Assembly: GCA_024226555.1 (NCBI GenBank)
Contig: JAAELO010000512.1
Location: 1-56,637, forward strand
Source of the DNA: Desulfobacterales bacterium
GTDB lineage: Bacteria; Desulfobacterota; Desulfobacteria; Desulfobacterales; JAAELO01
DNA length: 56,637 nucleotides
Direction: 5' to 3'
Shown here: in pieces, positions 16,719 through 52,553 of the stretch
How positions within the stretch are numbered: the first letter of the stretch is position 1
Layout: each line of letters opens with the position of its first letter
Translations under genes and position numbers: made by a program
Notes under the pieces: model-generated
Told to the model about the DNA's origin: nothing
Database searches by the model: none
The model's input: the letters and a program-made list of their open reading frames with translations, nothing else

Positions 16719-17089
16719 TGAGTTTTACAGGCCCATATTACTACGAAAGAATGCGAGCAGCAGAACATGCTAGAGAAGCAGAACAAAGAACATATTCGCA
16801 AAGAACATATTCGCAAAGAAATTCGGCAGGAATACAATACACTCGCTGTGATCGTTGTGGTATTAGAACTCCTGCAAGAATGGATTATTATACTGATAGA
16901 ATAATATACTGTTGCGGGCAATGTGGGCATAATAATCAGCAAAACAGTACTATACAATATGCTCCAATTGAGTATTCGCATGGAGAACTTGAACCTTTAC
17001 CCGAACTCAAACCCGAACCCAAAACCTTTAGACAAAAACTACAAGATGAAACTGACGAGTGGTTGAAAGGAGTTAAACTTGAACTCTAA
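16718..17089 (+). CDS. Zinc-ribbon protein with a short tandem repeat
   Basis: 123 residues. Repeat TYSQR-TYSQR (encoded by the 15-bp repeat at 16789-16818), then a two-knuckle ribbon with CDRCG and CGQCG about 23 residues apart, then a Pro/Glu-rich linker and a short helix. Follows the coiled-coil gene and precedes the ParB-methyltransferase gene. Confidence 0.7.
   Translation: MSFTGPYYYERMRAAEHAREAEQRTYSQRTYSQRNSAGIQYTRCDRCGIRTPARMDYYTDRIIYCCGQCGHNNQQNSTIQYAPIEYSHGELEPLPELKPEPKTFRQKLQDETDEWLKGVKLEL
16789..16818 (+). repeat. Perfect 15-bp tandem duplication
   Basis: AACATATTCGCAAAG is present twice back to back and keeps the reading frame. A recent slippage duplication. Confidence 0.85.
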
Positions 17090-20509: not shown

Positions 20510-20716
20510 ATGGGAAAAGTTAAAAAGGAAAGAGCTAAACATAAAGCCACTATTAAAGTACTAAATGAAATAGTAAAAAATTCAAGGGACGACATAATAG
20601 AAGTAGGAGATAAACCTTTTACTGGAGAAGTAATTATTGAGTTAATTGCTAAACAGGGAGCAATGATTGCGACATTAGCTGATATTATAAAAGATCATTT
20701 GCAGGAGGGTAAATAA
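20510..20716 (+). CDS. Hypothetical protein
   Basis: 68 residues, basic N-terminus then amphipathic helices. AAAGGAG upstream. A one-base TAATG overlap couples it to the polymerase gene, so it may be a small accessory factor (inference). Confidence 0.68.
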   Translation: MGKVKKERAKHKATIKVLNEIVKNSRDDIIEVGDKPFTGEVIIELIAKQGAMIATLADIIKDHLQEGK

Positions 20717-23118
20717 TGCGTGTAGAACTCGAAGGTCCCCCAGATGCAGATATCATGTTCGTGGGAGAAGCTCCAGGAGAAACAGAAGATAAACTTGGCA
20801 AACCTTTCTCCGGTAGAGCAGGAAGAACTTTAAACAATCTTCTTGCTCAGGCTGGAATAGCTCGATACCAGTGTATAGTAACAAACGTAGCTAAAGAGCG
20901 TCCACCAGCAAACCGCATTTCCTACTTCTTCGAAGATAAAAAATGTACTATCCCGAAGCCAAAGATGCAAGCTTGGGTAAATGAACTCAAGGAAGATATA
21001 GAACTATATAAACCAAATATCATAGTAGCCCTCGGCGCAACCGCTCTCTGGGCACTAACCGGAGAAAAGAAAATCTCCATCTTCCGAGGGTATATAATTC
21101 CTTGCTCGCTTGTCCCAGGAGTAAAAGTAATTCCTATATACCACCCCCAGGCTATCAACTACGACTGGAAATTATACTTTCAATCAGTCTTGGATTTCCG
21201 CAAGGCACTCCGGCATTCTAAAACCCCCGAGCTTCCAGAAGTAAAACAAATCTATCGTCCGAATGTAAACCTTCCAGAGTTCCTCGCATACATGGAGGAG
21301 TGTATTACTAACCCTGAGTGGGATCGCCTCGCAATTGACGTAGAAACTGTTCAACCAGGATCACATATAGAAGAACTTGGACTTTCTCATTCTCCTGACT
21401 TCGGTATATCCATCTTCCTTCTCAAGGGTAGAATCCCTACTCTTCCAGAGAAAGACGAACTTCTCCTTTGGCAGACTTTCGCTAGACTTGTAAAAACAAA
21501 GAAAATTATTATGCAAAATGGAGCGTATGATATTGGCATCCTCTGGTACAATCAACATATTCTTATCCCAGATCTCTACATGGACACGCTCATTGCTGCT
21601 CATGTCTGTTGGCCTGAGCTTCCTCGTGACCTAGGATTCCTTGGTTCCGTATGTCTCAATGTCCCACCGTGGAAGAGCGGTAGCGCAAAGAATGAACTTT
21701 ATAATCCTGCTGATGCAGCTAACACTTTCGGCATTTCAGAAGTTCTAGATCTTGAACTCTCTACTCAGAAAGTCCGACATACTTTCAACTTCGAAATGGG
21801 GTTAATCCCTGTAGCTCTTATGATGCAACTTCAGGGAATCAAAGTTGATAGAGAAACACAAACAGAGCTCAAAGAAAAGTGGAACACAGTAATGGTGGAG
21901 ATGAAAACTCAACTCGATACTATCATAGGTAGAGAGATAAACTTCAACTCCCCGAAACAAATGCAAGAACTTCTATACGGAGATCTTAAACTTCCTGCTC
22001 AGTATAAAAGAAGAAAGTCCGTCAGGGACAAACGAACATTAACAACTGACGCCGCAGCATTACGTAAATTAGCTGGTATGGTCCCAGATAATCCAATCTT
22101 TAATCTGATTCTAGATTACAAAAAAGCCAACACACTACTCCGTTTCCTCGATGTAAAACTTTCCCCGGAGTCTAGGGTTCATACCAGCTATAACATTACC
22201 GGCGCGTCTTCAGATGACGAAGAAGATACTAAAAAAACCAAGCGATCTTTCGGTAGATGGAGCTCTTCAAAATCCATCATCCTTCCTTTCGGTAGCGGGA
22301 ATCTTCAGAACATTCCTCCCGAAGCTAGGAAAATGTATCTTGCTGAACCTGGGTGGACAATTATACAAGCTGATTTAATTCAAGCCGAAGCTGTGGTAGT
22401 TTCTCACCTTACTGGTAATACAAAAATGCAGCAAATGTTTAAAGATGCTTTTGGTTTGGCTAATAAAGAAAGAAAACCCTACGACATCCACGTTTTAAAA
22501 GCAACAGAACTCTTTGGAGTCCCGTGGGAAGAAGTTAACAAGGTACAACGTAAAACTGGAAAAGTAATCCGACATGCAAGGAATTATTCAGCTGGCCCAG
22601 GTGTACTTGCCAACCGACTTGGAATTACCATGTCAGATGCTAAGAAGCTCATTGTTGCTGATGAAAGAGTAGATCCTTCTCTTGGCCTCTGGCATTTATC
22701 AATCCAAGAAGAATTAAAAAGAAATAGGGTTCTAACAAACCTCCTCGGAAGAAAGCATAGATTTTTAGACCGCTGGGGAGATACACTTTTCCGCTCTGCG
22801 TATTCATACATCCCGCAGTCAACTATCGGGGATTTATTGAATGTTTCACTTAGAAAAGTATACGATAAGCTTCTTGAAGTACCGTTTGAAGTTAAACTAC
22901 TCCTACAACTTCATGATGCTTTATATCCTATGGTTAGAAATGAAAACGTAAATGAAACTATTAAACTCCTTCGAGACAACATGCTTCATCCGTTGACTTA
23001 CAACAACCAAGAGTTCACAATAGATGTAGATTTTAAACTTCACACATCTTGGGCAGAAGGAGAAGAACTTGAAATTAATTGGAAGGAGGTTGGAGATGGA
23101 ATCCCAAAAATCATATAA
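20716..23118 (+). CDS. Family A DNA polymerase fused to a uracil-DNA-glycosylase domain
   Basis: 800 residues. Residues ~1-165 form a family-4-type UDG: 'GEAPG' 17-21, 'GKPFSGRAGR' 28-37, 'TNVAKERPPAN' 56-66 and 'IYHPQA' 141-146; only three Cys are present, so the usual Fe-S cluster may be lost. A 3'-5' exonuclease follows: DVE at 208-210, NGAYD and YNPAD. The polymerase has motif A 'DLIQAE', motif B around 'GKVIRHARNYSAGP' and motif C 'QLHDA'. SPO1-like polymerases have a similar N-terminal UDG domain. This is the replicative enzyme. Confidence 0.92.
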   Translation: MRVELEGPPDADIMFVGEAPGETEDKLGKPFSGRAGRTLNNLLAQAGIARYQCIVTNVAKERPPANRISYFFEDKKCTIPKPKMQAWVNELKEDIELYKPNIIVALGATALWALTGEKKISIFRGYIIPCSLVPGVKVIPIYHPQAINYDWKLYFQSVLDFRKALRHSKTPELPEVKQIYRPNVNLPEFLAYMEECITNPEWDRLAIDVETVQPGSHIEELGLSHSPDFGISIFLLKGRIPTLPEKDELLLWQTFARLVKTKKIIMQNGAYDIGILWYNQHILIPDLYMDTLIAAHVCWPELPRDLGFLGSVCLNVPPWKSGSAKNELYNPADAANTFGISEVLDLELSTQKVRHTFNFEMGLIPVALMMQLQGIKVDRETQTELKEKWNTVMVEMKTQLDTIIGREINFNSPKQMQELLYGDLKLPAQYKRRKSVRDKRTLTTDAAALRKLAGMVPDNPIFNLILDYKKANTLLRFLDVKLSPESRVHTSYNITGASSDDEEDTKKTKRSFGRWSSSKSIILPFGSGNLQNIPPEARKMYLAEPGWTIIQADLIQAEAVVVSHLTGNTKMQQMFKDAFGLANKERKPYDIHVLKATELFGVPWEEVNKVQRKTGKVIRHARNYSAGPGVLANRLGITMSDAKKLIVADERVDPSLGLWHLSIQEELKRNRVLTNLLGRKHRFLDRWGDTLFRSAYSYIPQSTIGDLLNVSLRKVYDKLLEVPFEVKLLLQLHDALYPMVRNENVNETIKLLRDNMLHPLTYNNQEFTIDVDFKLHTSWAEGEELEINWKEVGDGIPKII

Positions 23119-33238: not shown

Positions 33239-34366
33239 CTACTTTTTTGTATAAGTCTTACCTTCCCAAACAAAAGTATCCCCAGATTTCATAGCTTTAA
33301 TTTCTTCTTCTGTACTTTCTTTAATTTCAGCTGGGCCTTCTACTTCATTCTTCGCAACTTTCTCCCAGCCGCCAATCATTTCAGTTGGAGTACCAAATAC
33401 AGAATCTTTTACATCAAGCCAAGTCTCTTTAATATTATTAAACATTCCTTCTTTATCTTCTCTTTCTATAGGAACCTCGTGTATTTTAGCTTTCCATACA
33501 TACTTATGAGTATTTGATAATTTATTAAACTGTCGTATAGATTCTGAGTTTTTATCAAACAAATGGCTAGCCATATTTCCATCTTTATCTACAGCGTTAA
33601 TTTGCTTTTCTATACCCAAAAGAGTCTGATCTGTTTTATCAACAGCTGTACCGCTAGGAGCTTCATCTTTTGGGGTAATTTCAGATCTCTTCTTATACCT
33701 AACTTTTCCATCTTTACTTACAACTTTAACAAGTGTTTTATCGTTACTCTCTACTCCTGCCCATCTAGCTCCAGGATCTCCAGTAAGCTTTTGCAAATCA
33801 AGAACATCTCCGTGCTTTAAATCCCGCGTTGATACAGCGATAAACTTTCTATTCCCATCTCCATCTATCCAGGCTTTATACTCTGCAGTTCCTCTATTAC
33901 CTACTTTTCCTGCTTCAGTCATAAAACCTTCATAAATTCTTCGAAGTTTTTCTTGGTTCTCTTTTGTTATTCTATAGCCTGTCGGTGAACTTACATCTTT
34001 TTGTTTATACCTATCAAGATTCGGTAGTAACATTTCAGCATGATCAGCATAATCGCCACTTTTAAGTCTCTCTTGAAACTCTGATAAAGCTTTCCCTGTA
34101 TCATCATAAATAGTAGAATACCCGACACCCATCACGTTTCTTATAGCTTTAGCGCCGTTAAGCGTATTCTGTAATTCTTGCTCTTTAAGTATAGCATTTT
34201 TTATAGCTCTATCTGTTTTAATAGCTTCTGGAGAAAGTTTTATATCAAGCAAAGCGTTTTGTTTATCACGAGTTACTTGCCTTTCTCTAGATTCCTTTCT
34301 TCGATCCATACGATCTAAACCTTCTGTTATATCAATTCCCTTTGTATTAAGTGCTGGTAACGTCAT
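33239..34366 (-). CDS. Probable ejection or virion protein
   Basis: 375 residues, charged, mostly helical, Lys-rich. It lies between the gp7-like and giant ejection protein genes, as P22 gp20 does between gp7 and gp16, so it is the likely second ejection protein. The assignment rests on position and composition. AAAGGAG upstream. Confidence 0.7.
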   Translation of the reverse strand: MTLPALNTKGIDITEGLDRMDRRKESRERQVTRDKQNALLDIKLSPEAIKTDRAIKNAILKEQELQNTLNGAKAIRNVMGVGYSTIYDDTGKALSEFQERLKSGDYADHAEMLLPNLDRYKQKDVSSPTGYRITKENQEKLRRIYEGFMTEAGKVGNRGTAEYKAWIDGDGNRKFIAVSTRDLKHGDVLDLQKLTGDPGARWAGVESNDKTLVKVVSKDGKVRYKKRSEITPKDEAPSGTAVDKTDQTLLGIEKQINAVDKDGNMASHLFDKNSESIRQFNKLSNTHKYVWKAKIHEVPIEREDKEGMFNNIKETWLDVKDSVFGTPTEMIGGWEKVAKNEVEGPAEIKESTEEEIKAMKSGDTFVWEGKTYTKK

Positions 34367-34378
34367 TTCATTTCTCCT

Positions 34379-35140
34379 TTATCTTGCAAGGTCTGATGGA
34401 TTAAAAGAACTGCCTGTAGTAGTCAACCCTCCTCCGCTACTGTAAGAGCTTACTACATTCTGAGCTGCAGCATTAGTAGCAGGTCTATTTTTCCACTGAT
34501 CAAACAACGCCATAGCATTATTTACATTTGACTGACCTGCGCCAGTAATAGAGTTCATTGCATTTATATTTCCTGCAGCTATAGCATTTCCTGCAGCTAC
34601 CTGTAAACCACCGGCTGTATTCTGACCAGACAATAAAGTATTTCCAACGTTTGATCCAAGATTAGCACTTTGTCCAGCTGTTTGACTTGCAGTAGATTGA
34701 CCGACACCTGCAAGACTTTGCAACGGAGTTAAACTTTCATAGTGTCTACGAAGGAAATTATCATAATCATTTGTAGCAAAATTCTGTCCATACTTCAACA
34801 GTGCTTTCTGTTCTGCTCCTCCAAGTAAATTCCCTCTTGCGGCTGCTCCACGTTCAATAGCTTTTTGACCTTCCGCAAGTCTAAATTCATACCCAGGACT
34901 TGATTCAAAATCTCCAGGCCCTTCTGCAATTTTTAATTGTAAGTCTGTAAGTGCCTTTCCTCCTGCCTCTCTCCAAGGAGCTGTATCTGCTCTAGCTTGT
35001 GCATTCATTTCTTTCTGGAATGCTATTGCCTCTCGAGTTGCCGCTAAAGTATCTCTGGATACTCGTTTAGCAGTTTTTGCCTGCTCTTCACCAGTTTCTT
35101 TTGACGACATAGCCCCCATTGCTCCGGACATTGCTGACAT
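34379..35140 (-). CDS. P22 gp7-like DNA ejection protein
   Basis: 253 residues. The pattern 'APWREAGGKALTDLQ', 'SPGYEFRLAEGQKAIERGAAARG', 'YDNFLRRHYESLTPLQSLAGVGQ' is typical of gp7-like DNA transfer proteins; the C-terminal half is Gly/Ala/Asn-rich low complexity. It is packaged in the head and enters the cell with the DNA. AAAGGAG upstream. Confidence 0.82.
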   Translation of the reverse strand: MSAMSGAMGAMSSKETGEEQAKTAKRVSRDTLAATREAIAFQKEMNAQARADTAPWREAGGKALTDLQLKIAEGPGDFESSPGYEFRLAEGQKAIERGAAARGNLLGGAEQKALLKYGQNFATNDYDNFLRRHYESLTPLQSLAGVGQSTASQTAGQSANLGSNVGNTLLSGQNTAGGLQVAAGNAIAAGNINAMNSITGAGQSNVNNAMALFDQWKNRPATNAAAQNVVSSYSSGGGLTTTGSSFNPSDLAR

Positions 35141-35142
35141 AA

Positions 35143-35604
35143 CTAAATCTCCTTTATATAGTGTAACTCCAATAACTTATAACCACTTTTTTCATAAAAC
35201 TTTTTAAGTGAATCAGGATAAGAATCTACCATATGAACCATTCCAAGTTTTTTACACCCAAGCTTTTTAGCCTCTAGCTCAAACCTATCAAAAAGCTTTT
35301 TACCAAGACCTTTATATCTCGGATCAACAAACCAAAAGGCTTCTATTGCCATTTTCTTTCCATCATGTAAATCATTAGTAATTATAAATCCAATAGTTCC
35401 CTGGATTTGCTTTTCTTCAGTTTCTGCATAGTAAATCTTACAGACGCCCTTTTCAAGAAGTTCTTGATAACTATCATGAGCATACTGTACATCAACAGTA
35501 ATTTCACTACTTGCATCTTCAAACGCTTTCATAAATTCAGTATGTCTTAAAGTACCTCTAGCTTCTTCTGCTGTCCACTCTTTAATTTCACCGTGTTCTT
35601 TCAT
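35143..35604 (-). CDS. GNAT-type N-acetyltransferase
   Basis: 153 residues. The acetyl-CoA loop is 'RYKGLGKKL', after the strand 'AIEAFWFVDP', and the C-terminus 'FYEKSGYKLLELHY' is typical of GNAT folds. Its start overlaps the stop of the radical SAM gene as TAATG, so it is translationally coupled. Last gene of the modification cassette; it probably acetylates an amine made or exposed by the other enzymes (inference). Confidence 0.87.
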   Translation of the reverse strand: MKEHGEIKEWTAEEARGTLRHTEFMKAFEDASSEITVDVQYAHDSYQELLEKGVCKIYYAETEEKQIQGTIGFIITNDLHDGKKMAIEAFWFVDPRYKGLGKKLFDRFELEAKKLGCKKLGMVHMVDSYPDSLKKFYEKSGYKLLELHYIKEI

Positions 35605-36551
35605 TATGCCGCCTCCATTTTAGCAATCCCCTCATTGATCATAAGACCAAGTGGAATTGGGTAAAGTTTATTATTTTCAGTAACCATTTTTGGTGAGCAA
35701 TTTACTCCATCTATATCCATTGCCGTTCTTGCTGGCGAACAACATAAACTTACAATACCATTTTCTGTCAGGTAATTTAAATTATAAATCGTATTACCTC
35801 CCATTTTATCTGTAGTCTTAGCTTTTGGATAATGCTTCTCAAACTCACCAGCCATTTGAGACAGATAAATTGTTTTCTCTTCTTCCTGCGCCCATGTATT
35901 AAAAGGGCTACGTACTCTTATATTAAGTATAACATCATTCCACTCTTTCCAGATAGCTAAAACTTTCTCAATTTCTTTTACAGACTGAATTGCAAACATT
36001 GCAACATCTATTTTATACCCGAGTCTTCTTATATTCTCCAACGCTTCAAATTTAACTGCCGGCGCGTCTGGATGAATGCTAATAACAGCGTAAATCTTTT
36101 TATTAAAGCTTGCTACATCAATATACTCATGAAGGAAATTTATATCAGCAAACTTAATTCCATTAGTAAGACAATAATTAGCATTAGTTGTATTTGCAAG
36201 TATGTCAAGTATTTCTGGATGCATTGTAGGTTCTCCACCACTGAACCACATAGTATAATTTTGTAAATACCTAGCCTTGTCATAAATCCAATCTACAGGT
36301 TTATGGGTTTTACTAACTGGGTAATAACACAATTTACACTTAGTATTACAGTCATTAGTTATATTAAGCATTACAGCATTATAATAAGCCCAATTCTTTT
36401 GAGTCCCGTGTATGCAGTAAAACTCTGTATCCACTTCCATGATACCGTTAAATCTCCCATGTGTTTCACAAACACTATCCATATACACCCTATCGCTAAT
36501 AACAACCTTCGCTTCTGCTTCTTTATAGCACTTTGGACAAATTGATTTCAT
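35604..36551 (-). CDS. Radical SAM enzyme with N-terminal zinc ribbon
   Basis: 315 residues. The 4Fe-4S motif CNTKCKLC spans 68-75 (Cys68, Cys72, Cys75), with 'FSGGEPT' as the SAM-binding GGE motif. Residues 5-31 have the CPKC...C-x2-H ribbon seen in Tes/MJ0619-like radical SAM proteins. A Cys-rich end (LCCS...C) may hold another cluster. The substrate is unknown; peptide or nucleotide-sugar chemistry is possible. Starts at an ATGA overlap with the glycosyltransferase gene. Confidence 0.87.
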   Translation of the reverse strand: MKSICPKCYKEAEAKVVISDRVYMDSVCETHGRFNGIMEVDTEFYCIHGTQKNWAYYNAVMLNITNDCNTKCKLCYYPVSKTHKPVDWIYDKARYLQNYTMWFSGGEPTMHPEILDILANTTNANYCLTNGIKFADINFLHEYIDVASFNKKIYAVISIHPDAPAVKFEALENIRRLGYKIDVAMFAIQSVKEIEKVLAIWKEWNDVILNIRVRSPFNTWAQEEEKTIYLSQMAGEFEKHYPKAKTTDKMGGNTIYNLNYLTENGIVSLCCSPARTAMDIDGVNCSPKMVTENNKLYPIPLGLMINEGIAKMEAA

Positions 36552-37141
36552 TGTTTAGCCGCCTCTCTATAATCTCTTGAACATTCATAATTAAGATACC
36601 CATTATTCTCATGCTGTCTCCAATAATACCCTACAGTTTCAATATGTTTCCTTTCGTACTGCATTAATTCAGTTTTAAGATACTCTTCTGGAAGCTCTTT
36701 TAACTGCTTCATAATATATTTAATTCTAGAAGTAATTAATTCTCTTCTAAAAGTAAGTATATGATGGCAATGCATATTCTCCCCAATGTCTACAAAACCA
36801 AGTATATACTTTGTATAAAGCTTAGGGTCAGAACTCCAACCAGGCTGTAATATATTCCCACTTTCGTCTATAAGCATTTCATCTGTATAACACCACGGAA
36901 CACCAGTATCCATTACATCATTTATTTTCTTAAATATTCCTGGTTCAATAAGATCATCGTAATCTACAAAACTAACATAATCACTAGTTCCTGTTAAAAA
37001 TCCCTTTACTCTACCAGCTCCAATATTATCATCATTCTTTAAAACGAACAAATTTATACACTCTTCTTTTCCTAGTTGTTTAAGAAGTTGAGGAAAGAAA
37101 ACTCTTTCATCGTTGTGTCTAAGACAATGTACATCTATCAT
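36548..37141 (-). CDS. GT-A-type glycosyltransferase
   Basis: 197 residues from ATG 37141 (AAAGGAG 10 bases upstream). 'LKNDDNIGAGRVKGFLTGTSDYVSFVDYDDLI' matches the family 2-like GT-A core with the DxD metal site at 60-63. His residues in the second half are typical. The N-terminus is short, so it may lack part of a standard GT2 fold or act with a partner. Overlaps the B12/radical SAM gene by 23 bases. The acceptor is unknown: virion protein, DNA base or surface glycan. Confidence 0.75.
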   Translation of the reverse strand: MIDVHCLRHNDERVFFPQLLKQLGKEECINLFVLKNDDNIGAGRVKGFLTGTSDYVSFVDYDDLIEPGIFKKINDVMDTGVPWCYTDEMLIDESGNILQPGWSSDPKLYTKYILGFVDIGENMHCHHILTFRRELITSRIKYIMKQLKELPEEYLKTELMQYERKHIETVGYYWRQHENNGYLNYECSRDYREAAKQ

Positions 37142-38237
37142 TTGCTCTTTGCTCCTTTCTTTCGTTGCAGCTTTTAAGTGCTGGAAACTGATACATACCA
37201 TGAGCTTCGATGTATTTACCAAATTCAAGGTCTAGAAATTCTTCTTGTTCTTCTGTAATCAATCGAGTCTTTCCATCTTTAGTTCCAACAAACGGCTGAA
37301 CTAAAGCGGGGAATACATTATACCCTCTTGGAATAAGGCTAATTTCAGTAGTTATATCTTCATAACTTTCATTTTCAAATCCAACCAAGATACTCGAATG
37401 GTAACTTATATCGTACTTATGCAGTAAGTCTAAAGTGTTTATAATACTCTCTGCTTTAATTCCTTTACTCATTGCATCAAGTTTTACTTGATTAAAGCTC
37501 TCAACTCCAACTACAAAGTAATTACAGTTACTTTCTTTTGCAGCTTTTACCATTTCTTCATCAAAAGGTTCGCAACGAATACTTGCTCCCCATTCTAAAT
37601 CCTTTCCTTTCATCCAGTTGCAAATTTTCATAAATCTTGACTTTGACAAATTAAGAGTATTATCATTAAACACGATGCTTTCTATTTCATACTTTCTTTT
37701 ATAATACTCAATTTCTCCAAAAACCTTTCCAAGACTTCTAACTCTAAACTTACAGATCTGTGTACAAAACGTACAAGAATGTGGACAACCTCTAGAAGTC
37801 AATACGCCCATATATTTCAAACTATGTCTTTTATGATACTCTTCTACCCCGAAGCCTTCGTAATCGGGCAAGGGAAAATCGTCAATATTTGACGTTTCTT
37901 CAAATTCACCAACGATTATCTGATCAACATACTTCCCCATAACTTCGGGGATATACGTTGCAAGTGCTCCACCAAGCACAGTCCAGATTCCCATTTCCTT
38001 ACAAAGCGTAGCGTCTCTAACTATACTCTTAGCGAATTCTTCAAATCCAGTAAAACATACTACATCTTGATCTTTTACTTCCTCTATAAAATCGTAGTCC
38101 CAGAGGTTATAATTCAGTACTTTTACTTCATGCCCTTGTAGTTTCAAAGTACTAGAAACGTACATAAACCCCAGCGGATAACAACAAGGATCATCTAACG
38201 CTACATCGTACTTATGACAAACTAAACATATTTTCAT
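37119..38237 (-). CDS. B12-binding-domain radical SAM enzyme
   Basis: 372 residues. Residues 1-110 form a Rossmann-like domain resembling B12-binding domains of class B radical SAM enzymes ('PLGFMYVSSTLKLQGHEVKVLN', 'VLGG', 'VGE'), but I do not see the DxHxxG motif, so B12 may bind without it. The cluster motif CPHSCTFC is at 151-158. Typical family reactions are methylations or ring rearrangements. First gene of the cassette. Confidence 0.87.
   Translation of the reverse strand: MKICLVCHKYDVALDDPCCYPLGFMYVSSTLKLQGHEVKVLNYNLWDYDFIEEVKDQDVVCFTGFEEFAKSIVRDATLCKEMGIWTVLGGALATYIPEVMGKYVDQIIVGEFEETSNIDDFPLPDYEGFGVEEYHKRHSLKYMGVLTSRGCPHSCTFCTQICKFRVRSLGKVFGEIEYYKRKYEIESIVFNDNTLNLSKSRFMKICNWMKGKDLEWGASIRCEPFDEEMVKAAKESNCNYFVVGVESFNQVKLDAMSKGIKAESIINTLDLLHKYDISYHSSILVGFENESYEDITTEISLIPRGYNVFPALVQPFVGTKDGKTRLITEEQEEFLDLEFGKYIEAHGMYQFPALKSCNERKEQRANDRCTLS
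37881..37893. repeat. Dispersed palindrome GTCAA-TAT-TTGAC
   Basis: Perfect arms followed by GTTTCTT. Inside the B12/radical SAM gene; the codons read Thr-Ser-Asn-Ile-Asp, the same frame as the copy in the giant ejection gene. Confidence 0.75.
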
Positions 38238-38252
38238 TTCACCGCCCTCCTT

Positions 38253-38888
38253 TTAATGTTTATCTGTGTGTTCATACCATATAAGTTCCATACTAAATTG
38301 TAAATTACCGCTTCCTGTATTATCTCCAACTACTCTAAAGTAGTAAGTTGTATTAGCTTTTAAAATGTATTCATCTGTATGGGCGTGGCCATCACTTGCT
38401 GTTTTACCTTTTTTACCGCCTAATATTTCTGTATGTAAAACGGTTCCATCGCCGCTAACTGGAGTTGTGTCCCCATCTAGAACTAACGAAACTTCGTTAA
38501 CTGCAGGAGTTCCTCTTACAGACGATACTATACTTTCATTATCAGAATTTCTATTTCTGTTTCTTGGCTCATAAAATGTAGTTGGATAATTAGCAACATC
38601 AATCGTAGGAGCTTCAAGAATATCAAATGTTGATTTATCTGCCACATCAATCTGATAAACTAAATGTAAATATTTTGTAGTATCTGGAGTAGTAAACAAA
38701 ACTCCCATTTCGCCATTCTTAGCGAAAGTTAAATCAACTAAATGAACACAAAATGTAGATCCTCCATGAATCTCATGGTGAGCATAATCTACAGTTTGAA
38801 GAGAATTAGTACTTGCATCTATTCTAGCTTCATCTGTTTCTCCATCACCACTACCCCATCTACCATTTATAAGTTTCCAAAGACTCAT
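38253..38888 (-). CDS. Probable virion/tail surface protein
   Basis: 211 residues, rich in Thr, Asp and Gly with alternating beta-strand patterns ('TYYFRVVGDNTGSGNLQFSMELIW'), like a beta-sandwich decoration or tail protein. It follows the tail accessory genes. Starts one base before the preceding gene's end. Function from context only. Confidence 0.65.
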   Translation of the reverse strand: MSLWKLINGRWGSGDGETDEARIDASTNSLQTVDYAHHEIHGGSTFCVHLVDLTFAKNGEMGVLFTTPDTTKYLHLVYQIDVADKSTFDILEAPTIDVANYPTTFYEPRNRNRNSDNESIVSSVRGTPAVNEVSLVLDGDTTPVSGDGTVLHTEILGGKKGKTASDGHAHTDEYILKANTTYYFRVVGDNTGSGNLQFSMELIWYEHTDKH

Positions 38889-39539
38889 TTAAAACCACCC
38901 TTTAGTTGCATTATAATGAATATCTATTATTTCTCCAGATGCTAAACTTGAAGCGACTCCAGCCCCAGCGCCAAATAACTCTTCCGTACCATCTGGGTCA
39001 ACAGTTAAAGTATTACTTCCACAATTTATTATTTTAAACTCTTGTCCTTCTACACCAACTGGAAGTGTAGCAGTAAAACTCCCTCCATCAGTATCACAAA
39101 ATACTACATGATCAGATGATAAAATAGTATAAGTTGTTGTAACTTTAACGGTTTTAACAATCAACCTAGCTGAAGATATAAGACCAGCTGAAAATGTAGC
39201 ATCCCCTGTAGTTGTTGTTGTACCTGGAAAAATTAAATTACTTGGAAATGAAAGTGTTATAGTCCCATCCCCATCATCTGTCACAGTTATTTGGTTTGCA
39301 TTTCCAGCTATCCAAGCTTTAAGGTCACCAACTGAAACAAGTGCTTTATCCCCATCTGACGCAATTAGTCTATTTGTAGTAAGATTACCTAACGTTAGCG
39401 ATCCAAATTCTAAATCATCACCACTAAAACTTTCTGAAGCCATTAGTCTATCAAAATACTTTACCCAAACATTAGACATAGTATTTGATTCATTAAACAT
39501 AGCCTCTTTTATTGGAGCTTTTAATGTCATACTGTACAC
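38889..39539 (-). CDS. Probable tail or fibre-type structural protein
   Basis: 216 residues. A helical start followed by short repeats of beta sequence ('GSLTLGNLTTNRLIAS'), then a beta-rich C-terminal domain. This resembles trimeric tail fibre or needle proteins. It comes right after the gp10-like gene, where P22 has the gp26 tail needle, but no sequence match to gp26 is claimed. Confidence 0.65.
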   Translation of the reverse strand: MYSMTLKAPIKEAMFNESNTMSNVWVKYFDRLMASESFSGDDLEFGSLTLGNLTTNRLIASDGDKALVSVGDLKAWIAGNANQITVTDDGDGTITLSFPSNLIFPGTTTTTGDATFSAGLISSARLIVKTVKVTTTYTILSSDHVVFCDTDGGSFTATLPVGVEGQEFKIINCGSNTLTVDPDGTEELFGAGAGVASSLASGEIIDIHYNATKGWF

Positions 39540-41050
39540 TCCTCAACTTCAGCATACGCTGCAAGCATTACAATTTTAACTGGATCAGTCATTGTTATAC
39601 GGTAAATTCTATTTCTTGATTTCCCAAGCCTTCTTCTTACTACTCGAGTTGTAAACTCATTATACAAACCTAGACTAGTTGAATACTCACTTGAAAAAGT
39701 ATGTCCTCCATCATCTGACCAAGCAAAAGTTGCAGTAGGATTATATCCATCCGCTTCTTCAGCAACATCAAGTCCAACACCTGTCTCAAAATCAACTTCT
39801 AATCTATGCCATATAATATTCTTTCTTTCTTTATTAACTGTCGGAGATGTACGAATTCTTCTAATTGTGTTATCATCATCAGCATATACATCTATATCTA
39901 ATTCAAAAAGTTGCCCATAGGTATAATCACCAATAATATACTTACCATCAAACTTCACGCAACTGTTCATTCTATGCCTACTATACACATCAGCTACATC
40001 AGTAAAACTTTGCCATTCGTGCCAGAAATCTGTCGTTACATCATAAACCCAAGTTTTCATTTCTGTAGGGAAAGTTAAAACATAAAAAATATGACCCATA
40101 AGAGTATATGTAAACCCTTTTGCGTCAGTTGTAGTATCATACGTAGAAATTTGATAATCAATATGTACAGTAGAAACCGTATCAAACTGATAACCTCTTG
40201 AACGAATAATCCTTTTCTCGTTAGATAGCCAATAAATAATCCCATTAATTTTTACAGCAGAAGCTCTTGCTTGTATACCAAGTTCTAGTATTGCACCTGA
40301 AATTCTAGTAAACGGAAAATCTACATTTCCAGAGTTATAAAAAACTTCTGTTGTCTCTTCTCCAAATACCCAAAGATCATTAGCGTTAGATAATACAAGT
40401 AACGCTGCATCTGGATTTGCTTCTGCTGTAGTAAATTCTAACGGGTCCCAAGATGTGCCATCGTATAATCCTGAAATATATATTCTTCCTAAATCTGATG
40501 TTATAATAAAATAACCATCTTGAAATGTTACGCTTGTTGCTACCGGAAAATCTCCATCAGCAATCACCGCCAACACGCCAGCGGTAACTAAATATCCTTG
40601 GTCTGTTCCATCAACTACAATTACTTCCGTGCCGTTATCAGCAAAATATATATCTCCAACAGATGTACTAATTGTACCTAACGAAGAATTACTACCATTT
40701 GTTTCTACTTGATTTATTGAAGCATTAACTCCAGTATACATTACGCTACCAAAAGCGTGCGCACCTCTATTTGGTCCTACAACAAGAATTGGATCTCCCA
40801 AAATAGTATCCATTCCTGTATTCCAAAGAGCAGTCATTGCTGTATCCCAATAAGAGGTCATTACTGTATTCCAATAATTATCTAAATAATCAATTATTTC
40901 AGAAAATGACGTTATTCCAGGAGTCCCATACAACGCTACTATATTCTTCGCATCTCGTTGGTCTACAGCAGGAAACAAATTAATACACTCCTGTGCATTA
41001 ATGTTTTTGCTATATCCTGTATACGCTCCACCTACAAAAGGAATTTCCAT
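39527..41050 (-). CDS. P22 gp10-like packaged-DNA stabilisation (tail hub) protein
   Basis: 507 residues. The N-terminus 'PFVGGAYTGYSKNINAQECINLFP' and 'LYGTPGI' are typical of gp10-like proteins, which form the hub of the tail plug below gp4. The remainder is beta-rich with Trp/Asp turns, consistent with a propeller-like fold. P22 gp10 has about 470 residues. Overlaps the next gene by 13 bases. Confidence 0.85.
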   Translation of the reverse strand: MEIPFVGGAYTGYSKNINAQECINLFPAVDQRDAKNIVALYGTPGITSFSEIIDYLDNYWNTVMTSYWDTAMTALWNTGMDTILGDPILVVGPNRGAHAFGSVMYTGVNASINQVETNGSNSSLGTISTSVGDIYFADNGTEVIVVDGTDQGYLVTAGVLAVIADGDFPVATSVTFQDGYFIITSDLGRIYISGLYDGTSWDPLEFTTAEANPDAALLVLSNANDLWVFGEETTEVFYNSGNVDFPFTRISGAILELGIQARASAVKINGIIYWLSNEKRIIRSRGYQFDTVSTVHIDYQISTYDTTTDAKGFTYTLMGHIFYVLTFPTEMKTWVYDVTTDFWHEWQSFTDVADVYSRHRMNSCVKFDGKYIIGDYTYGQLFELDIDVYADDDNTIRRIRTSPTVNKERKNIIWHRLEVDFETGVGLDVAEEADGYNPTATFAWSDDGGHTFSSEYSTSLGLYNEFTTRVVRRRLGKSRNRIYRITMTDPVKIVMLAAYAEVEECTV

Positions 41051-41056
41051 TTAATC

Positions 41057-41770
41057 CTACCTAAAGTAATCTGAGTTTACACTATATCTATTATAGTTAT
41101 TTACTGGTAAAGTAATACCTACAGGCTCTACCTGATTAGACGCGTTTCTATTTGTAATTCTATCATATGAGTTACTAGCTACTGCCGCAACCTCTCTCGA
41201 TACAGACTTTCCAAACTCTGGAGCAATTCGTACCGCTAGATTGTAAATAATAGGTTCTTCATAACTAACAGGCATTTGAAGTGTATCATTTACTGTACCA
41301 AATGAACTTGTTTCAGTAAACGGTTTTAAGCTTTCAAGTTTTAATGTTTCTGCATTAACTGGAATAGGGTGAAGACTTATAGTCACAAGAGGGTAACCGT
41401 AAAGTGGAAATAAATAATACGGTCTACCAGTTGTGGTTTTTAGTGCTAAACTTCTATACTTCCCTTCAGAAATAGTATCTACTTTATGCGTTACTCCACT
41501 AGAGTCTAGAATAGAAACTCCAGTTACTTGATGAGGTCTTGCTGTATTAATATCACCACCAGACCCCCATGTATACTCATAAGTTCCACCAACTAAAGTA
41601 TGATCTTCATGTACTGAAGAAAAAACATTAAGCTTTTCAGCTGCCCAAGATCGAAGCATTACTTGCAAGCTTTCAAGCGCATCTGGTTGTTCATCACTAT
41701 TAAGACTTTCACCGCTAGCAATAACCCCAAGTTTTCTTGCAGCCGCATCGAGTATTTCTGAAACTAGCAT
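41057..41770 (-). CDS. P22 gp4-like tail accessory protein
   Basis: 237 residues. 'EILDAAARKLGVIASGESLNSDEQPDALESLQVMLRSWAAEKLNV' is the signature of gp4-like connector proteins, which bind under the portal. Longer than P22 gp4 (166 residues), with an added beta-rich part. It lies directly before the gp10-like gene, as in P22. Confidence 0.82.
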   Translation of the reverse strand: MLVSEILDAAARKLGVIASGESLNSDEQPDALESLQVMLRSWAAEKLNVFSSVHEDHTLVGGTYEYTWGSGGDINTARPHQVTGVSILDSSGVTHKVDTISEGKYRSLALKTTTGRPYYLFPLYGYPLVTISLHPIPVNAETLKLESLKPFTETSSFGTVNDTLQMPVSYEEPIIYNLAVRIAPEFGKSVSREVAAVASNSYDRITNRNASNQVEPVGITLPVNNYNRYSVNSDYFR

Positions 41771-45936: not shown

Positions 45937-48519
45937 TTATGATGTTTCTGATTCCCAGAAAGTTGGATTAGAAGCTGAGAGATAAAAAACAAGTTTGTTT
46001 ATAATTCCGTTAAATTGGTTAGCTGAACCGTCAGAACTTCCTACATAAAAATCAGCAATTGCCCAACTTCCATCGTAAGAGTCTTCTGCGCTACTGCTCC
46101 CACCGGCAGATAACTGTTTAGTAGTATCCCACCAGTATGAACTCATCTTAGTATAACCAGTAAATACTGCTGCAAGAGTTGTAACATTTGTTCCATCGTT
46201 GCTTAATAAATCATCTGTCCCACCATCACAATACATAGTTGAAATTACTGTACCTACAGCATCAATGGCAAGATCTGATGCAAGGACTTGAGCCTCTGCA
46301 TAAATAGCGCCTTTTGGATGCATAACTTCTTGACAAGTTACGTTATCAAAAGTCCCAACTCCAGATACATGGCTTCGCAACTCAAACCTAATTGAATTAC
46401 ATTCAAGTGTACCTGAATAAGAACCAGAAGCATCTGATAAAACAATAGTATCAGTAAAACCGCTAAGACGATTACTACCAGAAGATACTGTATAATCAAA
46501 AGAAATTTTATAAAATTTCCCAGATGTAACAACATCTTGGTATACAGAAGAAGCACTACCTGAACCATCTATATTCGCCACTCCACTACTAATAGTTGAA
46601 TTTGTTTTAGACCAATCTGTGTCAGCATCAAAACCACCATTAGCTATAACTGTAGTTCCAAAAGATTGCTCGATTAATTCTGTACTAGCAGTAAAGTTTA
46701 AATCCTGTGGATCAAGCGTCTCATCGCCTACAATAGGATGAGAAGATACCTGAGCGTAACCATCATCAAGTTGAGCCCAATCAAGGTATACTGCGTCCCC
46801 CGAAGTTACAAGACGAAGCCCAATTTCTGGGTCAGTAACAGTTGGAAGGGTAGTCTGAACTAAGTGCCAACCAGAACTGCCAGCTACTTGAGCAGTCACA
46901 TCGACCCAAGTGCTTCCACCATCAACAGTGACTTCGATATTACCAGTACCAGTTTTTCTCTTAACAAAAAATCCTCCTGCGTGAACACCACTTGCAGAAG
47001 TATAAGGGTCAATAATTATAGTTCCATTTGCTCCTGACGCAGTAAGAGTATTTTGATCTGCAATAGACTTCCCATCAATTAAAACAACTGCCCCAGCGGT
47101 TATTGAACAATTAGTTACATTCCAATCAGCATGTGTAAAATCACGGTAACGAGCAACCCCTATTTGGTTTGTAGTGGTAGGCCAAAAAGCAACTCCAATT
47201 ATATTTGTTAGTGGTATTGTGCTTGGTCTAATACTGCCAGTTAATGCAAGCTGATCATAAAAAGCATCAGCAACGTACGCCTGGGCTTGTTCGTGCCAAT
47301 GAAGATTACCAGTATCAATGAAAAATTGACTTGATGCGTCAGAGTCCCCATCCTCTCCAAACGCTTCATATACATCTAAAAGAAAATACCCATTTGCAGT
47401 ACAATATTCAGCTAACCAAGTATTATATGACTCAGTCCATGTCTGCCTGTCGGCATTCCAAGTCACTGCATCTTTCCAAGGGCTGATATTAATAAACATT
47501 GGGATGCAGTTATTAGCAACACAAGATGCAGTCATGCTGACTATAGCTGCTCGCATAACAGTGTTTTGATCTGCTACTGCAAACAATAAATCATTTACCC
47601 CGCCTTGGATAATAGCAAAATCCTGATTGGCAGGATCAACATCATTTACAAACCGAGCTTCTATCTGAACTAAAGTTTCTCCGCCTGTTCCATAGTCTTC
47701 TACTGTTGAATCTAGTACATTATTTAAAGTAGTTGTAAAAGGTTGAGAGGTAGCATTTAATTGAGAGTCGCCAATACCGGCTCCACCGTTAGGGTAATTA
47801 CCAGTTATAGAATTTCTTAATCTACCATCGTAATCTAAAACTTCAACCATCTCAGTATTGTAAGACTCTGTTACAGCGGCTGTAGTAGTGGTTAGTGCCT
47901 GAGCACCGTTTTGATTTGTTTGTCCAGTAACCTTCTCACATACAAAGTCTGTAATAGTTACCTGTTGCGGATCGTTGCTTGCTTTATAATCGGCAAACCC
48001 GCAACTAACTAAACCATCCCCTACTTTTCCAAGAAAAACTGCTGTATACCTTCTAGGAGTATCAGTTAACCTTAATGTCGTAAGATTTCCAGTTTCACTA
48101 TCTAAATGTACAAACCGATATTCTCTTTTAGCAATATCATTATTAACAACTGCAGAGGCAGTAAAAGATACGGCGTATTCTTCGCCCTCCACGGTAGTTA
48201 TATTCTGATATACCGCGTCCCCTGCGGAATCAGCAAGAAAACCGTCTGTACCAGTAATTACAACTCCACCATTTTTTGTCCAAGCGGCGTTACTGATATC
48301 ATTTGAGTATTTAAAAAAGTTTTCAACTCTCCTACCCCCATAAAAAGCAGGTTCATCAATCGCAGCAGTCTTTAACAAACCTTCAAAATCGAGAAAATTC
48401 ATCGGGCTTGCGCAAGCATATGTCCCAGAATATGCAGTTAACCACGCTTCAAATGTATCTGAATTAGAAAGATCTAATTCTACTGTTCCACCACCAGCCA
48501 TAAAATCCATAAAATCCAT
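45937..48519 (-). CDS. Large virion protein with SGNH/GDSL hydrolase domain
   Basis: 860 residues from ATG 48519; a TTG start six codons earlier is possible. Residues ~60-200 are a beta-sandwich of carbohydrate-binding type. The SGNH hydrolase spans ~245-420: block I GDS at 250-252, block III 'GGVND' at 306-310, and Asp402/His407 in 'DTGNLHWH'. Beta-rich domains follow to the end. Such enzymes deacetylate or cut ester groups on surface glycans. It lies in the head gene cluster between portal and scaffold. Confidence 0.82.
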   Translation of the reverse strand: MDFMDFMAGGGTVELDLSNSDTFEAWLTAYSGTYACASPMNFLDFEGLLKTAAIDEPAFYGGRRVENFFKYSNDISNAAWTKNGGVVITGTDGFLADSAGDAVYQNITTVEGEEYAVSFTASAVVNNDIAKREYRFVHLDSETGNLTTLRLTDTPRRYTAVFLGKVGDGLVSCGFADYKASNDPQQVTITDFVCEKVTGQTNQNGAQALTTTTAAVTESYNTEMVEVLDYDGRLRNSITGNYPNGGAGIGDSQLNATSQPFTTTLNNVLDSTVEDYGTGGETLVQIEARFVNDVDPANQDFAIIQGGVNDLLFAVADQNTVMRAAIVSMTASCVANNCIPMFINISPWKDAVTWNADRQTWTESYNTWLAEYCTANGYFLLDVYEAFGEDGDSDASSQFFIDTGNLHWHEQAQAYVADAFYDQLALTGSIRPSTIPLTNIIGVAFWPTTTNQIGVARYRDFTHADWNVTNCSITAGAVVLIDGKSIADQNTLTASGANGTIIIDPYTSASGVHAGGFFVKRKTGTGNIEVTVDGGSTWVDVTAQVAGSSGWHLVQTTLPTVTDPEIGLRLVTSGDAVYLDWAQLDDGYAQVSSHPIVGDETLDPQDLNFTASTELIEQSFGTTVIANGGFDADTDWSKTNSTISSGVANIDGSGSASSVYQDVVTSGKFYKISFDYTVSSGSNRLSGFTDTIVLSDASGSYSGTLECNSIRFELRSHVSGVGTFDNVTCQEVMHPKGAIYAEAQVLASDLAIDAVGTVISTMYCDGGTDDLLSNDGTNVTTLAAVFTGYTKMSSYWWDTTKQLSAGGSSSAEDSYDGSWAIADFYVGSSDGSANQFNGIINKLVFYLSASNPTFWESETS

Positions 48520-48520
48520 A

Positions 48521-48931
48521 CTATACCATCCGTACAAATGTAAGAATTATTAAATAAGTTGCTGAAACCGTTGCTTGATTTGCGACACTTAAAGTAAGCT
48601 TACCTTTCATAGGTATCCGTTTATTTTGAGAATCTATGTTTGGAATAGTTGCTTTAGTATCAGTTGCATGAATTAAACCAGTTCCATTCCCTCCCAAAAC
48701 ATCTAGCCCGTGTTCATCATTTATAACTACATCAGCAGCATCAGGCGCTGTACCTCCAGGTACTGATTCTACTGAATCTAATGACCAACCTTGCACTCTT
48801 TTGTACATATCGTCAGTTAATGCTGTATCTGCTATACTTCCATCACCAGCATCACAAAGACAGTCAAAAGTTATTGTACGAATGTCTGGACCATATTCTT
48901 GATATGATTGTCTAACTATCTCTCCTGCCAT
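48521..48931 (-). CDS. Hypothetical virion protein
   Basis: 137 residues from ATG 48931, preceded by GAGGAGATTG. Beta-rich with a C-terminal hydrophobic strand. It overlaps the portal gene by 20 bases. Phages of this type often have a small head protein at this place, but no family is certain. Confidence 0.7.
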   Translation of the reverse strand: MAGEIVRQSYQEYGPDIRTITFDCLCDAGDGSIADTALTDDMYKRVQGWSLDSVESVPGGTAPDAADVVINDEHGLDVLGGNGTGLIHATDTKATIPNIDSQNKRIPMKGKLTLSVANQATVSATYLIILTFVRMV

Positions 48932-50885: not shown

Positions 50886-51075
50886 TATTTACCTCTTTTA
50901 TTGTACCAATAAGAAACTCGTTACGAACCATAGATTTAAACATTTCACTATAATCTTTCACGCTTAATAAACTAGTATACATTTCTTTAGTCACAGGTTT
51001 ATATTCCCATATATATTTAGTATTAAATTGAACGTATAAGGTTTCTATACTTTCTTTATAATTTAAAATCTCCAT
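50869..51075 (-). CDS. Small late protein between terminase and portal
   Basis: 68 residues from ATG 51075, overlapping the TerL stop as TAATG. Aromatic and acidic, helical. No family recognised. A longer start at 51090 is possible. Confidence 0.6.
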   Translation of the reverse strand: MEILNYKESIETLYVQFNTKYIWEYKPVTKEMYTSLLSVKDYSEMFKSMVRNEFLIGTIKEVNNDFKS

Positions 51076-52553
51076 TACATCCCCATCCATAAAGTGCCTT
51101 CATTACCCATACCGTAGTTTTTATACTTCCCAGTTTCATAATGATCTACTTTCTCTTTAGCAAATACTCGAGTAGAATCATTTGAAAAATACTCTGTGAT
51201 GCAAAGTGAATCAGCTATATTAGGACTATCAATACCTCTAGCTTTGAGATCTTTTTTACTTTCTATAACATACCCACCATGAGCGTTGAATGTATATCTT
51301 ACTGTAGCAAGCTCACTAGCAAGCCGTTGCCCAAGACTTTCAGTCTCTCCTGCTACTTTAATATCAGGAAAGGAGTATTTTCCAAGAAGGCAGTTGTCTC
51401 TAACTCTACACCAAAGCTCATCTCGGAGTCGGTGAAACTTCGCGACGTCGCTGGAAGACATAGTTACATTGACTTGGTATAGATTTTGCAAGTTCCTTTT
51501 CTCAAGCCAATCAGCTACACCAGCTCCAACACCTATAGAATCAATTCCAACTCCACTTGCGTCTAATTCTTGATGAGTTTGAAGTACATGACCGCCAAGA
51601 TCTATAGTGTTTAACTTATTAAACGTCTCCCAGGGGTATATTTTCAATCCCCTTCTAGGAAGAATTATAGAAGCATCGTTTCCATATCTTGCCACATCTA
51701 CACCAAGATAAAGAGGTTCATCTTCAGCAACTTCAAACTCCTGTCCAATGCACTGCTGTGCTGACCAAAGCGGAATTAAAGTATCATCGTCTTGAAGAGG
51801 AGGATTTCCTTCTACCCTGATTCTATATACGTTAGAGTCAAGGCCGTATTTTGCCTCGAAGTATGCCGGCATAGAGGGATCGACGTTAGTAGATTCCCGA
51901 GAATCAAAATGAAGTTTTGACCAGAGCTTTTTAATTTCTGAGTGAAAATGCGTATCGTAGAAGTAACCGGAATTCTTAGTCATATTCCCAATAAGAAGTA
52001 CTTTATTATCTTCTTGAGTTAACGCACCTTCAAGAGGAATATATGTTGGATCAGGTACACCAGAAGCCTCATCAATGATTATAAATAGATGTTTATCATG
52101 AAGTCCCGCAAGAGTTTCAGCTTGTTCCTCTTTTGTAGCGCGTACAGAAGGAGAAATTAATTTCAACCACCACTCTTTCGGGGCTTCTTTATGTACTACG
52201 GAGTCTCGCATAACTTTAAACTCGTCTGCGACAAGCGACTGACGAAGCCACATAGATAGCTCCGCAAGGAATATATCTCGAAGCTGGCGATTAGTAGGTG
52301 CAGTGACTACAACTTCTGCATAAGGTCGAGTTACAAGAAACCAAAGAGCAAGCCATGAAGCACAAGCATCTTTTCCGATTCCATGACCAGAGCGTACTGT
52401 AGTTCGCTTGTTTTCATTAACTGACTGAAGAAGCTGAATTTGCTGAGCTGTCGGTGTAACTTTTATACATTCAGTTACAAAAGCAAGAGGAGAACGCTTC
52501 CAATTAGAAAGTGTATCCAAAACTCCTTTATTTATATTTGTAGTATCAGTCAT
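51075..52553 (-). CDS. terL: Terminase large subunit
   Basis: 492 residues. The ATPase has Walker A 'SGHGIGKDA' near residue 56 (Asp where Ser/Thr is common), Walker B 'IIIDEAS' and a coupling segment 'LIGN'. The RNase H-like nuclease has Asp in 'YLGVDVARYG', 'GIDSIGVG' and 'NIADSLCITEY'. It pumps DNA into the procapsid and cuts it. Length and motifs fit phages using headful-type terminases, but packaging type is not shown. Confidence 0.9.
   Translation of the reverse strand: MTDTTNINKGVLDTLSNWKRSPLAFVTECIKVTPTAQQIQLLQSVNENKRTTVRSGHGIGKDACASWLALWFLVTRPYAEVVVTAPTNRQLRDIFLAELSMWLRQSLVADEFKVMRDSVVHKEAPKEWWLKLISPSVRATKEEQAETLAGLHDKHLFIIIDEASGVPDPTYIPLEGALTQEDNKVLLIGNMTKNSGYFYDTHFHSEIKKLWSKLHFDSRESTNVDPSMPAYFEAKYGLDSNVYRIRVEGNPPLQDDDTLIPLWSAQQCIGQEFEVAEDEPLYLGVDVARYGNDASIILPRRGLKIYPWETFNKLNTIDLGGHVLQTHQELDASGVGIDSIGVGAGVADWLEKRNLQNLYQVNVTMSSSDVAKFHRLRDELWCRVRDNCLLGKYSFPDIKVAGETESLGQRLASELATVRYTFNAHGGYVIESKKDLKARGIDSPNIADSLCITEYFSNDSTRVFAKEKVDHYETGKYKNYGMGNEGTLWMGM

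Follow-up and report, generated by a model that had tools for sequence, protein, structure and literature searches.

Radical SAM and GNAT genes form a conserved unit with a DNA-ejection gene in podovirus-like phages

A 56,637-base contig from a Desulfobacterales metagenome-assembled genome (MAG) of 7.69 Mb, analysed here over its whole length as the window (JAAELO010000512.1; G000:C511), carries a podovirus-like phage whose virion operon contains a cassette of four genes. These encode a B12-binding radical SAM protein (rSAM1), a short glycosyltransferase (GT), a zinc-ribbon radical SAM protein (rSAM2) and a GNAT-fold protein (GNAT), and lie between two probable tail or fibre genes and ejA, a DNA-ejection gene of family phrog_598. 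We found that the conserved unit is rSAM1, GNAT and ejA rather than the four-gene set, and that the set in the window is one variant of a slot with rSAM1 and GNAT as its fixed parts. We tentatively propose that the rSAM1–GNAT core acts late, in connection with the virion, to mature the product of the adjacent ejection gene, a role that we consider possible but short of probable.

The original prediction for this DNA had described four overlapping genes set in a virion operon and had suggested that their products form a joint pathway. Minus-strand open reading frame (ORF) coordinates bore out the overlaps of 23, 4 and 1 bases along rSAM1, GT, rSAM2 and GNAT, each of the four proposed enzyme identities drew a Pfam match, and the placement between tail and ejection genes held, with the probable tail or fibre genes upstream and the phrog_598 gene downstream. 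The joint pathway, by comparison, did not survive as a conserved unit.

Conservation of the rSAM1–GNAT–ejA unit

Viral scans that used rSAM1, rSAM2 or ejA as single queries were unproductive, and relatives were sought instead through the terminase, which gave 80 IMG/VR loci. Forty records (38 taken from these loci and 2 from a scan with the head-closure protein Hc3) were then searched over their full length; Hc3 was present in 10 of them and rSAM1, at 66–70% identity, in 4. With alignment-based scans, rSAM1 relatives were found in 14 IMG/VR contigs, three of which are near copies of one phage, giving 13 distinct loci including the window. Two of the copies (L121 and L132), 98.8–99.2% identical in DNA to L120 over rSAM1–GNAT–ejA, appear in neither the identity table nor the ejA counts. 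GNAT lay beside rSAM1 in all 14 contigs, either directly or with rSAM2 between them (L137, L156 and L158), and ejA came next in 13; the remaining contig, L137, ends inside GNAT, so that ejA followed in every one of the 13 contigs that reach it. Intact relatives recur at this position in 14 other contigs, which indicates that the cassette is not a chance assembly.

A search for the four-gene order in other phages, which the original prediction had put forward as a check, showed that the full set is not conserved. Among 18 records searched, rSAM2 occurred in four (L137, L158, L156, where the profile match passes through one stop, and L146/L160, where it stands ahead of rSAM1) and GT in two (L126 and L137). 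L126 has the order GT–GNAT–ejA without rSAM1, and its GT is 64% identical to that of the window; in L137 a partial GT is located upstream of the adaptor gene Ad3. With rSAM2 and GT optional, we rejected the four genes as a single conserved pathway. INPHARED contained no close relative of rSAM1, and hence no isolate is at hand; a distant member used as query returned three records at 25–27% identity over less than half of its length.

Sequence constraint on rSAM1 is tight. PF02310 and PF04055 were matched in one chain in 8 of 8 members by Pfam, and the CX3CX2C motif (C151, C155 and C158) is invariant in 13/13 phage proteins. The motifs D-x-C-C-[YF]-P-L-G, which includes C18 and C19, and FNDNTxN are common to the 13 phage proteins and were found in none of nine cellular relatives. 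C18 and C19 are adjacent cysteines that follow the first strand of the B12-type domain, a pair with the same 13/13 and 0/9 distribution. Between the window and eight distant loci, identity was 49–59% for rSAM1 and 26–40% for GNAT; for ejA, Hc3 and Ad3 it was 18–36% in seven loci and 43–50% in L157. The major head protein, compared in three loci, was less conserved than rSAM1 in two (30% and 33%) and more conserved in L157 (68%). Distances for rSAM1 track those for Hc3 (Mantel r 0.81, 13 loci) and ejA (0.80, 12 loci), and the 13 phage proteins form one clade (100/100) against the nine cellular relatives. From these comparisons rSAM1 appears to have been retained for a long time under strong constraint and does not resemble a transient passenger gene. 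Recent acquisition from a host is disfavoured, because rSAM1 distances parallel those of Hc3 and ejA; matches at E 1e-40 occurred in 8 other genomes among 389 of the class, all to longer cellular enzymes (474–762 aa), and a search of genome contigs gave a single match, 22% identical.

Structure prediction for both radical SAM proteins, also suggested at the outset, was informative for one of them. The AlphaFold2 model of rSAM1 (predicted local distance difference test, pLDDT, 82) is most similar to B12-type radical SAM folds, with AprD4 leading (Z 28.7 over 340 residues at 3.0 Å), ahead of OxsB (25.5), TsrM (23.7) and MgmA (23.5), and with MiaB and RimO next (Z 21–23); VIA-align compares only chains ranked by Foldseek, so families outside that list are not thereby ruled out. 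Identity was 14–19% across the best 15 rows, too low for the reaction of rSAM1 to be read off from its fold. MiaB/RimO membership was rejected, as rSAM1 scored 19.7 bits against the NCBIfam TIGR00089 cut-off of 251 and lacks the defining features. Two cobalamin adenosyltransferase genes are present in the MAG, so cobalamin may be available. For rSAM2 the predicted structure was of low quality (pLDDT 52) and was set aside; by sequence, the nearest solved relative of rSAM2 is the tetraether synthase 7tol (3e-24), and it scored 41.8 bits against NCBIfam NF045702 (Tes), well below the cut-off of 450.

GNAT belongs to phrog_1249, which was matched by 10/10 members scanned. In active GNATs the acetyl-CoA loop reads (R/Q)-x-x-G-x-(G/A); in the phage family, [RK]GxG is retained in 12/13 sequences. 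The GNAT profile had no match in the PDB at 1e-4, and weak matches up to E 1 were used solely for viewing this loop, which was two residues shorter in two of three such alignments to solved GNATs, the gap falling elsewhere in the third.

The ejA N terminus and the slot before ejA

The start of ejA differs with the presence of rSAM1. In 30 proteins compared, ejA begins MSxxSG in all 12 rSAM1 phages and in none of 18 phages without rSAM1, of which 10 have MSVVA or MSGVA instead. L137 was left out of these counts because its contig ends inside GNAT, and L175 (MCGGGN) and two ejA-like ORFs of L187 (MGRFSI and MAFWAA), none with SG, were left out of the ejA tree. The 12 cassette proteins share invariant M1, S2, S5, G6, P55, G60 and G147; one of the two alignments adds G76. 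Three of these (P55, G60 and G147) correspond to residues that are also invariant in non-cassette ejA (ranked over 17 of the 18 proteins, L094 being absent), and S2 is common there too; S5–G6 is therefore the invariant feature special to cassette phages. Codons at both positions vary among the phages (TCC, TCT, TCA or AGC for S5; GGA, GGG or GGT for G6), indicating conservation at the level of protein rather than DNA.

The motif appears tied to rSAM1 rather than to GNAT, since L126 and L128 have GNAT but neither rSAM1 nor SG. The ejA proteins of L125 and L126, both lacking rSAM1 and SG, are among the three best BLAST matches to the window's ejA and cluster with it when the N terminus is omitted from the tree. 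On the ejA tree, rSAM1 and SG each require five changes, and they change together. The family phrog_598 was matched by seven of eight ejA proteins re-scanned.

The place before ejA is occupied in relatives without rSAM1 as well. In L128 the phrog_1249 GNAT alone stands directly before ejA; in VvAW1, BA3 and DSL-LC05 the slot holds a short phrog_12032/24280 protein annotated as a tail fibre adhesin, and in phage P26218 and L125 a protein of this kind with a weak C-terminal SET match. In T7, gp13 occupies the position directly before gp14. In L125 (8219–9085) and L170 (8241–9116), GNAT's place is taken by a phrog_34170 protein whose C-terminal part weakly matches a SET domain. Elsewhere, a phrog_1249-type GNAT was seen in an otherwise different phage (L147, 9908–10372) with no ejA match alongside, and small cysteine-rich (CxxCxxCC-like) proteins were read from the structural regions of two relatives (L091, 2135–2524; L092, 3698–4075). 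This slot before the ejection gene, filled by varied small proteins, points to a neglected step in podovirus assembly, even if our guess at the substrate is wrong.

A proposed maturation module and its rivals

T7 gp14 is the first core protein to be ejected and is located in the host outer membrane, and its homologues are said to retain membrane-spanning elements, according to PMC8954989. We suggest that rSAM1 may perform a radical reaction at or beside Ser5–Gly6 of newly made ejA during assembly. Going by its fold, C-methylation would be the first guess; MgmA, which C-methylates a glutamine of methyl-coenzyme M reductase, is among the leading folds and was counted in favour of ejA as substrate. 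GNAT might bind or acetylate the same end of ejA, and in some phages rSAM2 and GT might add to the tailoring. Once altered, the segment could aid ejA folding, packaging or entry into the host outer membrane on ejection. In its full form, in which short-tailed phages use rSAM1 and GNAT to install a radical-made modification on the MSxxSG start and their infectivity depends on B12-type radical chemistry carried out as virions assemble, the proposal is doubtful. An rSAM1 that is conserved far more strongly than nearby tail and ejection genes, locked to ejA and tracking its first residues nevertheless offers a concrete enzyme–substrate pair to test. If the proposal is true, phage infectivity would be linked to host SAM, possibly to B12, and to low oxygen, and the module might provide a new means of modifying proteins at a short N-terminal tag.

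Several observations weigh against ejA maturation. The modification is inferred, not demonstrated; the SG motif was seen post hoc while reading alignments, not predicted; and its association with rSAM1 is not significant after correction for kinship, as branches with good support contain a single independent pair and a sign test cannot reach significance. Joint transfer of the cassette and the ejA start could yield the same pattern. L177, a non-cassette ejA beginning MSLFSAG, is a near miss to MSxxSG, and the ejA of L159, which had no match in INPHARED, also had none to phrog_598 and was linked in through L138. The cassette phages are all metagenome contigs, several of them fragments. On the enzyme side, the short GNAT loop leaves acetyltransferase activity unsure, and AprD4, the best fold match of rSAM1, is not known to use cobalamin, so that a B12-type domain alone is no proof of B12 use.

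The module might instead modify another virion protein (the fibre, the second ejection protein or the transglycosylase protein), with MSxxSG as a linked lineage marker. All candidate genes share the operon and a fibre-type gene is often directly upstream of rSAM1, but different kinds of gene take that upstream position, and the one in L159, as read from ORFs, is not a fibre gene; the second ejection-type protein, ejB, was the one of these candidates aligned for a cassette-wide motif, and it gave one invariant residue, P4, across 11 aligned sequences. We regard this explanation as a doubtful one. It is rather unlikely that the enzymes act late on a host lipid or surface glycan, in superinfection exclusion or envelope weakening, with operon position reflecting only timing: the tetraether lipid synthase match of rSAM2 and the presence of GT in the window would fit, yet both genes are optional parts, and the constant linkage to ejA would be left unexplained. 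A GNAT-fold protein serving as a non-enzymatic assembly helper in the slot of T7 gp13, with rSAM1 doing something else, would account for the shared position before gp14, the shortened loop and the other fold types that fill the slot in relatives; G-x-G retention in 12/13 sequences counts against it, and homology to gp13 (PF11090) was not supported, with no Pfam match up to E 0.1 and an hhalign probability of 2.9%, leaving a likeness of position only. We consider this helper role unlikely.

Modification of RNA or of a translation factor by MiaB/RimO-like or Elp3-like chemistry is very unlikely. MiaB and RimO share the fold arrangement of rSAM1, and Elp3 joins radical SAM and GNAT domains in one chain, with a CX9CX2C motif; the phage proteins, by contrast, are separate chains, with CX3CX2C in a 372-aa rSAM1 that has no further matched domain, and tracking of an ejection gene would not be expected. 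Hypermodification of DNA bases is least favoured and highly improbable. Thymidine hypermodification pathways include radical SAM, GNAT and GT enzymes, and PF00303 is the family expected to contain pyrimidine hydroxymethylases; a search limited to PF00303 found no such gene in the window's MAG or in any of 12 related records, of which several are fragments, which disfavours a route through pyrimidine hydroxymethylation. Where the original prediction had named a virion protein or a DNA base among the targets, the first thus gained a candidate site in the MSxxSG start of ejA and the second lost ground.

Setting in the window and comparison with known systems

The phage carries replication-type genes on the plus strand and its virion operon on the minus strand, in the order large terminase (51075–52553), portal, scaffold, major head protein, Ad3-like adaptor, Hc3 and ejection genes (Table 1). 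The two probable tail or fibre genes upstream of the cassette had weak Pfam and PHROG matches only. Downstream, ejA is followed by a 375-aa protein and by a 1579-aa protein in which Pfam identifies an SLT transglycosylase domain; ejB relatives come after ejA in other loci too. A purine-rich Shine–Dalgarno-like stretch precedes each of the four cassette starts, and that of ejA lies within the GNAT gene, tying the two genes together and probably explaining the frequent C-terminal KEI of GNAT. For GT we took the ATG start; the mechanical ORF list begins further up, at a TTG (37228). Its Glycos_transf_2 match (E 6.7e-05) scored 23.3 bits, exactly the gathering score. Promoter-like and terminator-like sites in 34300–41100 were no more frequent than in shuffles.

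Table 1 Positions of the cassette genes and their neighbours in the window
Feature	Position	Strand	Match or basis
rSAM1, B12-binding and radical SAM, 372 aa	37119–38237	minus	Pfam Radical_SAM 7.2e-16, B12-binding 2.3e-10
GT, short GT2-like glycosyltransferase, 197 aa, DYDD motif	36548–37141	minus	Pfam Glycos_transf_2
rSAM2, Zn ribbon (HMPTM type) and radical SAM, 315 aa	35604–36551	minus	Pfam Zn_ribbon_HMPTM 7.2e-09, Radical_SAM 3.7e-08
GNAT-fold protein, 153 aa, phrog_1249 family	35143–35604	minus	Pfam Acetyltransf_1 1e-08
ejA, gp14-like DNA-ejection protein, proposed substrate	34379–35140	minus	phrog_598, 4.7e-31
ejA codons 1–6, MSAMSG (MSxxSG motif)	35123–35140	minus	sequence
ejA Shine–Dalgarno (aaaggag), within last GNAT codons	35141–35160	minus	read from sequence
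ejB, second ejection-type protein by position	33239–34366	minus	no family match; neighbour, outside module
Hc3 head closure	39527–41050	minus	upstream of cassette

The first 2 kb of the contig had no 25-base repeat elsewhere in the contig, so completeness is not supported, and the assignment of the phage to the MAG's organism as host has binning as its sole basis. Elsewhere in the window, the plus strand encodes an 800-aa protein in which a uracil-DNA-glycosylase domain (6–156) is fused to a family A DNA polymerase (381–781; gene at 20716–23118) and a DNA methylase whose N-terminal domain is of the ParB type (17079–18407); on the minus strand, the portal and scaffold genes flank one for an 866-aa protein that contains a GDSL lipase/acylhydrolase domain (45937–48537). 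The same MAG contains another phage that encodes a phrog_598 ejection protein (G000:C461, L187); ORFs of the 3.6-kb stretch viewed there had no rSAM1 or GNAT match, and a phrog_598 search of the 389 class genomes found L187 plus one doubtful match (L186).

Several known systems resemble parts of the cassette. AprD4, OxsB, TsrM and MgmA resemble rSAM1 in combining a B12-binding with a radical SAM domain in a single chain, in the CX3CX2C motif and in fold, whereas rSAM1 has low identity to all of them, its own clade, a Cys-Cys loop and a place in a phage virion operon, and scores far below NCBIfam cut-offs. Elp3 membership does not apply, with radical SAM and GNAT in separate genes and CX3CX2C in place of the Elp3 spacing. 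Like Tes and other HMPTM-type proteins, rSAM2 combines a zinc ribbon with a radical SAM domain and has 7tol as its best solved match, but its score against NF045702 sets it apart. In a comparison with ribosomally synthesized and post-translationally modified peptide (RiPP) systems, matches to RiPP models were far below cut-offs, and inside the cassette, the stretch considered, the genes overlap or abut and leave no room for a precursor gene.

The original prediction had also said that its author knew of no described phage system with this set. That stood within the literature searched, which excluded preprints and most subscription papers: no radical SAM protein linked to a phage GNAT or to genes for ejection proteins was found there, and no enzyme completing such a protein chemically. 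Phage radical SAM modules as such are an already known kind, as is modification of virions by phage enzymes. A module of a radical SAM protein, a DUF483 protein and another protein is described in Thermus phages Cumys and phiMa, recurring in phages and prophages with its role given as unknown (PMC11437467). Viruses of methane-cycling archaea are reported to encode B12-binding radical SAM enzymes (PMC9723712), PMC10773633 mentions a single radical SAM gene in a phage, and bacterial EVE loci are treated in PMC7641849. The Cumys and archaeal-virus examples are like ours in being phage-borne radical SAM proteins without an assigned role that either recur as modules or carry a B12-binding domain; the parts consulted mention no link to GNAT or to an ejection gene. 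T7 gp13 (PF11090) is similarly a small gene right before a gp14-type ejection gene, to which GNAT has no detected sequence link. A further precedent in kind is the glycosylation of mycobacteriophage virions, for which a phage enzyme is proposed to modify the phage's own virion protein (PMC11256854); here, the proposed chemistry would be radical and its target would be an ejection protein.

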